Made by a program: the position numbers and the translations under genes | In this document: in pieces, positions 27,590 through 30,700 of the stretch | Numbering within the stretch: the first letter of the stretch is position 1 | Layout of the letters: every line of letters begins with the position of its first letter | The notes under the pieces: generated by a model | Seen by the model: only the letters and a program-made list of their open reading frames with translations | The model's database searches: none | Told to the model about the DNA's origin: nothing | NCBI GenBank assembly: GCA_900315065.1 | Contig: OMXQ01000017.1 | Span: forward strand, 1 to 36,189 | Origin: an uncultured Erysipelotrichaceae bacterium | GTDB taxonomy: Bacteria > Bacillota_I > Bacilli_A > Erysipelotrichales > Erysipelotrichaceae | Direction: 5' to 3' | Length of the DNA stretch: 36,189 nucleotides

Positions 27590-27632
27590 ATAAAAACCCG
27601 GTGCTTCCTTTTATTCTTCAGGAAACCCGGGC
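27590..27632 (-). terminator. Attenuator terminator in the cysK leader
   Basis: On the minus strand GCCCGG-GTTTCCT (27632-27620 region) pairs with AGGAAGC-A-CCGGGT (27609-27596 region) over about 12 bp with one bulge, then TTTTTATT. The 5' arm contains GTTTCCTG (27626-27619), which is also perfectly complementary to CAGGAAAC inside the leader ORF, giving mutually exclusive folds. Confidence 0.85.
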
Positions 27633-27663
27633 TATCTACAGACTGGAGTGAACACGAAATCTT

Positions 27664-27744
27664 TTATGCTGTATAACAAAAACCTGTTTCCTGAGTATTG
27701 AAACAGCAGCAACATTCCTTTTTCATGTTTGTCTTCGTCATCAT
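27664..27744 (-). CDS. Cysteine-sensing leader peptide of cysK
   Basis: A 26-residue frame too short for normal gene calling. It starts ATG-ATG at 27744, with AAGAG upstream, and contains four consecutive Cys codons (TGT TGC TGC TGT, 27714-27703) in KKECCCCFNT, plus a fifth Cys at 27678-27676. The codons after the Cys run include CAGGAAAC (27693-27686), which can pair with the 5' arm of the downstream terminator. In the classical attenuation model, a ribosome stalled on Cys codons leaves CAGGAAAC free to capture that arm, allowing readthrough into cysK. With ample Cys-tRNA the ribosome covers it and the terminator forms. The codon run and pairings are seen directly; the mechanism is inference. 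Confidence 0.82.
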   Translation of the reverse strand: MMTKTNMKKECCCCFNTQETGFCYTA

Positions 27745-27760
27745 CGTTCTCTTTTTTCCT

Positions 27761-27777
27761 ACTCTTTTAGTAGGTCT
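27761..27777 (-). promoter_or_regulatory. 5' hairpin preceding the cysK leader ORF
   Basis: CCTACT-AAAAG-AGTAGG folds on the minus strand just ahead of the leader ORF. A possible promoter lies upstream: TTGTAA, 17 bases, then TAACTT preceded by TGT (about 27810-27787). The hairpin may shield the leader's ribosome binding region or protect the 5' end. Confidence 0.5.
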
Positions 27778-27835
27778 ATAAAGAAGTTAACACATGGGAA
27801 AATAAATTACAAGAAATTTCTGTCCGGAAAGTATA

Positions 27836-27869: not shown

Positions 27870-27945
27870 TGGTGGTTCCTGTCGGGCTCGAACCGACGAC
27901 CCACTGATTAAGAGTCAGTTGCTCTACCAACTGAGCTAAGGAACC
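27870..27945 (-). tRNA. tRNA-Lys (anticodon CUU), copy 1
   Basis: A 76-nt cloverleaf with encoded CCA. Acceptor GGTTCCT/AGGAACC, D arm GCTC/GAGC with AGTTGGTA, anticodon loop CTCTTAA in the ACTGA/TCAGT stem (anticodon CTT, reading AAG), and T arm GTCGG-TTCGAGC-CCGAC. Sequence identical to the copy at 30625-30700. Confidence 0.97.
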
Positions 27946-28097: not shown

Positions 28098-28793
28098 TTA
28101 TTTGCCGTATTTCTTGCCGTAGCCGTAACCATAGCCATAGCCATATCCATAGCCGTAACCGGCACGTTTTGTATCAACTTTGTTCATGACAACACCGAAT
28201 ACTTTGGCATTGGCATTCTTCAATCTTGCAATGACATCCTGCGCTAACCGATAATCATCTTTGCCGGATTCCATGACAAGAACGGTACCATCCGCAAATG
28301 GTGCAATTGCGGAAGCATCTACAACCATGCCGAGCGGTGCTGAGTCAATGATCACAATTTCAAATGTCTTCTTCAAAGCAGTCATCAGCTTTTCAAAACG
28401 CGGAGAAGCCAATAATTCAGAAGGATTCGGCGGAATCGGACCAGCCGGCATGACATAGAAATGCTTTTCCGTTGTGGAATAAATAGCATCATTTGCTTCA
28501 CACTGACCAGACAGGAAATGCGTCAGACCATAGCGGGAAGTACCAGCTTCAATCTTGTCCAGGATGACACTGTTTCTCAAGTCTGTATCCAGCAACAAAG
28601 TTTCCTTGCCAAGTTCCGCAAAGGAACGCGCCAGTTCCAGAGAAATCGTTGACTTGCCTTCGTTATCAAGACAGGAAGTTAACAGAACAGACTGTACCTT
28701 GTCACCGCAGAACATGATATTGGATCTGAGGCCTTTTAATTCTTCTTTGACTGTATAAGGCAGTTCTTCCTTATGAATAGCTAGTGTTTCCAT
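28098..28793 (-). CDS. cpsD: Capsular polysaccharide BY-kinase (CpsD/YwqD type)
   Basis: Cytoplasmic bacterial tyrosine kinase that, with its membrane adaptor CpsC, controls polysaccharide assembly through autophosphorylation. It has 231 residues. Walker A is TSCLDNEGKSTISLELA (Lys47), Walker A' is LLLDTDLRN, and Walker B is VIIDSAPLG. The C-terminus is a striking tyrosine cluster: seven Gly-Tyr pairs then GKKYGK. The ATG overlaps the end of cpsB by one base. It is the last gene of the cpsC-cpsB-cpsD unit; no glycosyltransferase, flippase or polymerase genes adjoin it. Confidence 0.95.
   Translation of the reverse strand: METLAIHKEELPYTVKEELKGLRSNIMFCGDKVQSVLLTSCLDNEGKSTISLELARSFAELGKETLLLDTDLRNSVILDKIEAGTSRYGLTHFLSGQCEANDAIYSTTEKHFYVMPAGPIPPNPSELLASPRFEKLMTALKKTFEIVIIDSAPLGMVVDASAIAPFADGTVLVMESGKDDYRLAQDVIARLKNANAKVFGVVMNKVDTKRAGYGYGYGYGYGYGYGKKYGK
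28104..28160. repeat. Hexanucleotide repeat encoding the Gly-Tyr tail of CpsD
   Basis: Seven near-identical GGN-TAY units in tandem (minus strand) encode the tyrosine cluster. Replication slippage could change the number of phosphorylatable Tyr residues without changing frame. Confidence 0.8.
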
Positions 28794-29578
28794 TACTTCT
28801 CCTCCTGATATGGACCATGCATCAGATAATCAGGCATGGTAATCAACAATGCCTGGGCTCTTTCAATGCCGTATTTCTTTGTGAGATATTCATATGCCCT
28901 GGCAAGATTCGGTCTTCGGTAATCTATGTGGTGGGCATCGCTTGCAACGATATCGGTGAATCCCTTCTCAATCAGTTCATTGGTCAGTTTTTTCGAATGC
29001 TTGCCTTCATCACCAAGGACTGCAGCAGCGTTGTTCTGAATCACTGCCCCTGCTTTTTTCAAAGCAGAGATGACTGTAAACGGATCTTTCTGAACTGGTC
29101 TGTATCTTTCCACGTGGGCAATCATCGGAATCCATCCTAATCTTGTAACTAATGAGACAAAGTATTCCATGGTCTCATATTCCAGATGCCCGGTTGTAAA
29201 TTCAATCAGAAGAACCGGACGCTCTTTGCCAAACGGCAATAAAGCAGGATCACAGACTCTTGTCCTGTTTGTATCCAGAAGAAGCTTTTCCAATCGCTTG
29301 TCACAGAAATACTCACGGGACAGACCAAGTTCCATATTTTTCAATACTGGATCTTTCAATGCCCACAAGCCAAGTCTTCTGAATTGACTGACCAGTTCAT
29401 CTCTCGGCGTATCAAACATGTCTTTCCGATAGTGGGAAGTAATCGTTATGTGTCTGACGCCTTGTTTGTATTCTTCTTTAAGCAAAGCCTTGCTGACTTC
29501 CAATGTATCTGCCCCGTCATCTACATACGGTACCAGGTGGCAGTGAATGTCATACAGGCCTTCCAGACGCTTTGCCAT
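28793..29578 (-). CDS. cpsB: Tyrosine-protein phosphatase CpsB/YwqE (PHP family)
   Basis: Manganese-dependent phosphatase that dephosphorylates the CpsD tyrosine cluster. It has 261 residues. PHP metal motifs are DIHCHLVPYVDDGA near the N-terminus, ITSHYRKD, PMIAHVERYRPV, and a final VASDAHHIDYRRPNLARAYE. It lies 3 bases after cpsC and touches cpsD, so the three are one transcript. Function follows from the family and the matching kinase next door. Confidence 0.95.
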   Translation of the reverse strand: MAKRLEGLYDIHCHLVPYVDDGADTLEVSKALLKEEYKQGVRHITITSHYRKDMFDTPRDELVSQFRRLGLWALKDPVLKNMELGLSREYFCDKRLEKLLLDTNRTRVCDPALLPFGKERPVLLIEFTTGHLEYETMEYFVSLVTRLGWIPMIAHVERYRPVQKDPFTVISALKKAGAVIQNNAAAVLGDEGKHSKKLTNELIEKGFTDIVASDAHHIDYRRPNLARAYEYLTKKYGIERAQALLITMPDYLMHGPYQEEK

Positions 29579-29581
29579 AAA

Positions 29582-30361
29582 TCAGGCAGCTGCCCTCTTT
29601 CTACGGGACTTCTTTGTTCTGCCTTTGCCTTTTCTATGATGTGTGTCTTCAAACAACATGGAATTTTCCTGCGGGATACTTGCGAGCACATTGACGCCAA
29701 GATACTTTCTGACGTCATCTTCATTTTTGATGCTTGTATCAAGAAGGTGTCTGGCAATAACATAGACTGCAGAAAGAAGGAATCCTACCAGAGCACCTAT
29801 GACCGTATTCTTGCCAAGACTTGGAGAAGAAGGAGATGTCGGTACCTTGCTTTCTTCGACAATGGTCAGCTTGTAATCTTCAACCATGGTCATGGCCAGA
29901 TCCTGCAGGGACTTGGCAGTCTGGTTGGCAATATCTGCTGCCTGCTTCGGATCCGCATCAGATGCAGAAATCTTCAGGATACGGGAACCGGTCGGGTTTT
30001 CAACTGTAATCTGTCCTGCCAATGCAGAAGAATCCATATCCAGTTTCAATTTATCGACAACGTCGTCCATGACAGAACGGGACTTGGCAATGGTCATAAA
30101 GTCGGAAGTCAGCTGTGTACCAACCTGCAGGTCGCCGGTTGTAACACTTTGGGAATTGGAAGATTTGTTATAGATATAAACCATGGAAGTTCCTGTATAC
30201 TTCGGGGTTACAAAGAACTTTGTGAATAACAAAGTAACAGTACCTGCCAGAATCGTACAGATTAACAGGAACATAAATTTTTCCTTCAATGTATGAAGAA
30301 GATCCATCAGATCAATTTCTTCTACATCGTTGTTGTTATTAGCAGCTTTATCCATATTCAT
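29582..30361 (-). CDS. cpsC: Wzz/CpsC-type chain-length and kinase-adaptor protein
   Basis: Membrane co-polymerase that activates the separate kinase CpsD. The N-terminal cytoplasmic part (DVEEIDLMDLLHTL) leads to TM1 (FLLICTILAGTVTLLF), an outside Wzz domain, a Pro-rich lead-in (VPTSPSSPSLG) and TM2 (VIGALVGFLLSAVYVIA), with a cytoplasmic tail ending in a basic stretch (KKSRRKRAAA). Three Met codons cluster at the start; I prefer 30361 since GGGAGG abuts the one at 30373 with no spacing, but the first cannot be excluded. The basic tail may be an RNA or membrane contact. Confidence 0.93.
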   Translation of the reverse strand: MNMDKAANNNNDVEEIDLMDLLHTLKEKFMFLLICTILAGTVTLLFTKFFVTPKYTGTSMVYIYNKSSNSQSVTTGDLQVGTQLTSDFMTIAKSRSVMDDVVDKLKLDMDSSALAGQITVENPTGSRILKISASDADPKQAADIANQTAKSLQDLAMTMVEDYKLTIVEESKVPTSPSSPSLGKNTVIGALVGFLLSAVYVIARHLLDTSIKNEDDVRKYLGVNVLASIPQENSMLFEDTHHRKGKGRTKKSRRKRAAA

Positions 30362-30420
30362 AAACCCAGACATCCTCCCGCCTACTTCAGCCCATTACAA
30401 AAACAGGCAGTGCATCTCAA

Positions 30421-30624: not shown

Positions 30625-30700
30625 TGGTGGTTCCTGTCGGGCTCGAACCGACGACCCACTGATTAAGAGTCAGTTGCTCTACCAACTGAGCTAAGGAACC
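30625..30700 (-). tRNA. tRNA-Lys (anticodon CUU), copy 2
   Basis: Identical over 76 nt to the copy at 27870-27945, including encoded CCA, 2,755 bases away in the same orientation. Confidence 0.97.

Follow-up and report, generated by a model that had tools for sequence, protein, structure and literature searches.

A probable trp-type attenuator with a run of cysteine codons ahead of cysK in an uncultured Erysipelotrichaceae bacterium

In Bacillota, amino acid shortage at biosynthetic genes is generally thought to be sensed by T-boxes and repressors, and sulfur genes are often under the control of T-boxes, S-adenosylmethionine (SAM) riboswitches, or CymR. The cysteine synthase A gene, cysK, on a contig of an uncultured Erysipelotrichaceae bacterium (OMXQ01000017.1, assembly GCA_900315065.1; the window referred to below is the whole stretch analysed, 36,189 nucleotides (nt) in length) raises the question of whether its expression is tied to cysteine supply in a different way: the gene is preceded by a short open reading frame (ORF) with four consecutive Cys codons, followed by an intrinsic terminator. 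cysK occupies 27511-26576 (TIGR01139, 429.6 bits against a cut-off of 351; PF00291) and, like all leader features described here, lies on the minus strand. The leader is very probably a transcription attenuator of the trp type, in which a translating ribosome senses the charging of Cys-tRNA(Cys) and so sets the expression of cysK, a reading that rests on sequence and comparative analysis.

The leader ORF, read directly and positioned by script, spans 26 codons (27744-27664) and would encode the peptide MMTKTNMKKECCCCFNTQETGFCYTA. Its codons 11-14 (TGT TGC TGC TGT; 27714-27703) are the candidate control codons, kept as Cys runs in relatives, and codon 23 (27678-27676) is a fifth Cys codon; the frame is as the initial annotation had described it. 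An ATG-started frame with four consecutive Cys codons did not arise once when the 329-nt leader was dinucleotide-shuffled 20,000 times; one with three arose in four of the shuffles. Shine-Dalgarno (SD)-like AGGA/GAGA bases precede the ORF at 27760-27749, and leader peptides matched no family among the NCBIfam models. The 3' arm of a perfect 6-base-pair (bp) hairpin, CCTACTAAAAGAGTAGG at 27757-27773, overlaps the AGGA bases; this hairpin might hold back translation of the leader or shield the 5' end.

Four RNA segments can be assigned in the window. The intrinsic terminator between the leader ORF and cysK consists of CCCGGGUUUCCU-loop-AGGAAGCACCGGG (27631-27597) followed by UUUUUAUU (27596-27589), with a folding energy of about -20.6 kcal/mol, which bears out the terminator and T-run of the initial annotation. 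Its 5' arm, CCCGGGTTTCCT (27631-27618), is segment 3, and its 3' arm AGGAAGCACCGGG together with the U-tract TTTTTATT (27609-27589) is segment 4. Segment 2, the 5' strand of the antiterminator, is TCAGGAAACAG (27694-27684) and starts 8 nt past the last Cys codon of the run. Within it, TCAGGAAAC (27694-27686) is a perfect 9-bp complement of GTTTCCTGA (27626-27618), which is mostly terminator 5' arm, so that the antiterminator (2:3) and the terminator (3:4) are mutually exclusive. The 9-base complementarity and the two exclusive folds had been recognized in the initial annotation, with coordinates that were one off from those given here. The 2:3 pairing is stronger than in 300 of 300 shuffles (p = 0.003). 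Folding of the whole leader (z = -3.08) yields, in addition to the terminator, a hairpin CUGUUUC/GAAACAG in which segment 1, CTGTTTC of the Cys13-Cys14-Phe codons (27706-27700), pairs with 27690-27684 of segment 2. This hairpin, which the initial annotation did not include, is the 1:2 protector of the classical attenuator; with it, a leader ORF with a Cys run, exclusive 2:3 and 3:4 pairings, and a terminator, the layout agrees with the trp-type attenuation that had been proposed from the sequence.

From this layout we infer leader translation, ribosome stalling, and a response to cysteine. RNA polymerase would transcribe the leader while a ribosome initiates on the 26-codon frame. With ample charged tRNA(Cys), the ribosome would clear the four Cys codons, after which segment 2 would fold onto segment 1 or sit under the ribosome; segment 3 would then be free to form the 3:4 terminator, and transcription would end before cysK. 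Under a shortage of Cys-tRNA, the ribosome would halt at the first Cys codons, covering segment 1 and stopping just short of segment 2; pairing of segment 2 with segment 3 could then precede the synthesis of segment 4, no terminator would form, and cysK would be transcribed.

This sequence of events was modelled by masking an assumed 30-nt ribosome footprint and computing pair probabilities before segment 4 is transcribed. Without a ribosome the 1:2 hairpin dominates (probability 0.73, against 0.16 for 2:3). Placing Cys11, Cys12, or Cys13 in the A site raises the antiterminator probability to 0.97. With the fifth Cys codon in the A site it is 0.00 (a ribosome stalled there would cover segment 2), and with the ribosome at the stop codon it is 0.15, with 1:2 back at 0.82.

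Whether the arrangement is kept in relatives was considered in a sample of 70 genomes of the same genus. With the threshold applied, cysK was matched in 51 of these, and the regions upstream of 68 cysK genes were analysed. In a taxonomic comparison by rpoB, hits had 58-68% identity to named genomes and 70-72% to two others of the same order. In 31 of the 68 regions, cysK is preceded by a short ORF that has an SD and contains a Cys run (for example MTAMLTNTCCCCKKNARRCR, MKNNVAVLNCCCCFNSGSRISHAELF, MFSMMFMYTACCCCSEKARTCLKTGLF, and MKQYTKKMMCCCCFKNVRIDTLCSLTLL). With a stricter SD test, at least three consecutive Cys codons occur in 18 regions and at least two in 30, as against 0 and 0.27 in shuffles, and runs of three of any other residue occur in at most two regions each. 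Outside the Cys run the peptides are mostly unlike each other, and the Cys codons vary (TGT 111, TGC 27); the run is thus kept upstream of cysK while the remaining peptide varies, which is the conservation that the initial annotation had proposed to look for. An intrinsic terminator was found by automatic scan in 28 of the 31 regions with the ORF, the other three terminators being read by eye, compared with 10 of the 37 regions without it (Fisher p = 1e-7). Another genus of the same family has a leader, MKYFNNMCCCCSLINNKPGLVF, with a terminator, and none of 33 regions from other families of the class carries a Cys-run leader at cysK. A transcription start downstream of the leader ORF, a possibility raised in the initial annotation, is not what the relatives suggest: a sigma-70-like site with at least 10/12 matches lies upstream of the ORF in 68% of all leaders (3.6% of shuffles), usually 20-45 nt ahead of the ATG, and no promoter-like site of at least 10/12 lies between the ORF and cysK in any leader scanned.

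The competing pairing is also kept, by compensating sequence change. In a permutation test, the segment that follows the Cys run was paired with the terminator 5' arm, and the energies were compared within and between 23 leaders less than 80% identical to each other; near-identical leaders were dropped because relatedness inflates the counts. The mean 2:3 energy was -14.2 kcal/mol within leaders and -10.7 kcal/mol between them (z = -6.5), and none of 100,000 permutations was as good. Compensating changes are visible by eye in TGCCCGGA/TCCGGGCA, CTCTCGG/CCGAGAG, CCTGGGAT/ATTCCAGG, GAAACCGGGCTC/GAGTCCGGTTTC, and GGATTGAT/ATTAATCC, set beside TCAGGAAAC/GTTTCCTGA of the window. Taken singly, the pairing reaches p <= 0.05 in 20 of the 31 genus leaders. 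Segment 2 starts 7-31 nt past the last Cys codon of the run (median 13, quartiles 9-16.5). Analysis of the sequence and comparison of genomes show the parts, their order and spacing, the exclusive pairings, and the conservation of these. A sequence-only covariance model of the leaders held too little information and was not used.

Two further motifs recur in these leaders. GGATTGTTTT lies near the leader stop codon in many relatives (L018, L021, L011, L125, L128, and L136), often with a downstream CAATCC or GATCC with which it could form a hairpin; lying between segments 2 and 3, this hairpin might draw them together or be a pause site. GGAGACGGG or a similar sequence lies immediately 5' of the leader ATG in many (L011, L018, L021, L114, L119, and L123), and pairing of this CGGG with CCCGG of segment 2 could be an alternative protector.

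Cys leaders also occur in a second, distant lineage, the genus around the metagenome-assembled genome Clostridiales bacterium SIG269 (L106; 47 genomes), in which they precede 18 of 30 cysK loci examined. These are of an MCC(C)LM..SRARC type (e.g., MKNIIPSQLNKNYWMCCCLMQSSRARCMAGVLS). In the 17 tested, an antiterminator of 8-11 bp is formed by segment 2, GCTCCCGGGC in most, and segment 3, GCCCGGGAGC, and segment 2 starts exactly 10 nt past the Cys run in every one; in this lineage, as in the genus of the window, segment 2 lies just ahead of the position of a ribosome stalled on the run. In three genomes of the genus of the window the leader, MMCCRVLCSRACCMAGVF, resembles that of the second lineage, and the cysK genes of these three lie in one larger division of the cysK tree with those of the second lineage (a quick tree with many open forks). 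The similar leaders and shared tree region together suggest that cysK has been exchanged along with its leader. The same kind of leader lies ahead of metY in some metY-cysK operons. In leaders of the G094 genus (e.g., L176-L199) the peptide, SSRARCMAGVLS, shows unusual conservation outside the Cys codons as well, exceeding what the antiterminator by itself would require.

Several observations weigh against attenuation by a translating ribosome. In the window leader, the SD is a weak match or poorly spaced, with the end of AGGA 12 nt from the ATG, and promoter scans of the window gave weak matches and no strong promoter. The element is missing from about half of the genus's cysK genes, and in 11 of the 31 leaders the 2:3 pairing is not significant singly. 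The segments could not be brought into register in a MAFFT alignment of the leaders, and RNAalifold on it accordingly gave no consensus structure; the permutation test of own against foreign pairings took its place. The cysK of the window is on a long branch of uncertain placement in the cysK tree, and its segments 2-4 are not alignable with those of relatives, so that common architecture, rather than homology of the leaders, is what the comparison shows. In the footprint model, stalls at Cys14 are predicted not to antiterminate (a 2:3 probability of only 0.08, a value that depends on the assumed footprint), since the footprint edge reaches segment 2. The complete transcript at equilibrium always favours the terminator; the switch must therefore be kinetic, as in trp.

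Three other explanations of the locus are to be weighed against this one. The Cys-run leader could govern translation or Rho-dependent termination, as has been proposed for the polycysteine upstream ORFs (uORFs) of actinobacteria, with the hairpin before cysK being incidental. An incidental hairpin would not be expected to accompany the leader ORF across the genus, as the terminator between leader and cysK does (p = 1e-7), or to have a 5' arm with specific pairing to the segment that follows the Cys run, and this explanation is judged very unlikely. Still less probable is an attenuator read by a T-box, a riboswitch, or an RNA-binding protein, in which the Cys codons would be incidental. T-boxes, SAM riboswitches, and CymR are common at the sulfur genes of Bacillota, and the genome is rich in T-boxes, with 23 matches, several of them ahead of aminoacyl-tRNA synthetases (the proteins being recognized by eye). 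Yet a scan with Rfam at gathering score matched no T-box, SAM riboswitch, or other Rfam family at the cysK leader, in agreement with the absence of a T-box noted in the initial annotation. Moreover, the leaders have no conserved aptamer-like sequence, whereas the Cys runs recur in SD-led frames whose peptides are otherwise unrelated, with synonymous codon variation.

Chance, that is, a meaningless small ORF ahead of an ordinary terminator, would be in keeping with the weak SD and promoter of the window leader, and other four-Cys frames do occur by chance elsewhere in the genome; pattern scans of the same genome for further Cys-run leaders gave only runs without an evident SD-ORF-terminator layout. 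A chance origin is nonetheless scarcely credible in view of the shuffles, none of 20,000 of which produced such a frame, the distribution of the leaders (31 of 68 regions in the genus, none of 33 from the class's other families), and the leader-specific pairing (z = -6.5). Ribosome-mediated attenuation remains the preferred explanation.

Upstream of the leader, a weak candidate promoter, TTTTCC-16-TATAGA (27775-27802; 7/12 matches), was read by eye, and its distance to the leader ATG is within the range usual among relatives. A tRNA-Lys gene (27945-27873, minus strand) and its following terminator (27866-27841) are separated from the leader ORF by approximately 100 nt. Farther upstream, at 28098-30373 on the minus strand, is a Wzz / PHP-type / ParA-like tyrosine-kinase cluster with a (GY)n tail, which is bracketed by two tRNA matches of equal score (27873-27945 and 30628-30700). 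A second cysK, unlinked and 64% identical, is found in the same genome (G000:C139:5169-6095; L127, L219) and is without a Cys-run leader; in one relative, a cobalamin riboswitch lies 3' of cysK (L023:2493-2682).

On a broader reading, held to be slightly more probable than not, Cys leader-peptide attenuators with intrinsic terminators would be a general and fast-evolving means by which some Bacillota control cysK (and metY-cysK). Their origin or remodelling would have taken place on more than one occasion, giving a native family type with unalignable segments and a mobile MCC-SRA-C cassette type shared with a distant Clostridia-like lineage. Genomes that rely on T-boxes for other amino acids would have these attenuators in place of T-box or CymR control. 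A cysteine leader-peptide attenuator in Bacillota would extend trp-type attenuation to a further amino acid and phylum. The many natural variants, in which the pairing segments are wholly changed and the logic is kept, form a useful set for the study of attenuator evolution, and the leader is a compact part that should report Cys-tRNA charging.

Among known systems with Cys codons in a leader, a mycobacterial polycysteine leader is reportedly cysteine-responsive, to go by the title of Canestrari et al. 2020 (cited in PMC13236596). Polycysteine leader ORFs precede cys/cbs operons in Mycobacterium, Propionibacterium, and Bifidobacterium and resemble the present leader in that a short ORF with consecutive Cys codons precedes a cysteine operon; they differ in belonging to Actinomycetota, in lacking a conserved intrinsic terminator, and, in mycobacteria, in being leaderless (PMC1262725). 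In Rhodobacterales, which are Alphaproteobacteria, the uORFC-8-2 motif lies ahead of cysS; it combines a uORF holding tandem Cys codons with an intrinsic terminator and is predicted, and predicted only, to act by ribosome-mediated attenuation. It has two Cys codons rather than the run of four found here (PMC8632094). The cysK leader is not classed with it because the regulated gene is cysK, not cysS. Within Bacillota, leader-peptide attenuators are represented by the His leader peptides at hisS/hisZ of Bacilli (PMC2965389) and, reportedly, the ilv-leu leader peptides of S. aureus and Listeria (PMC5794164; PMC5864092), although the amino acids and genes differ. No description of a cysteine leader-peptide attenuator at cysK in any member of the Bacillota turned up in a literature search that did not extend to most subscription papers.

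The closest likeness in design is to the trp, his, and leu attenuators of enterobacteria, which share with the cysK leader a run of control codons, the 1:2, 2:3, and 3:4 segments, a segment 2 just ahead of the stalled ribosome, an intrinsic terminator, and a cognate biosynthetic gene. The cysK leader differs from these in its amino acid, cysteine, in its unrelated sequences, and in its occurrence in a Bacillota genome that otherwise uses T-boxes. Its working principle is that of textbook trp operon attenuation; the mechanism is already known from trp, and what is new here is the lineage, the gene, and the recurrence.
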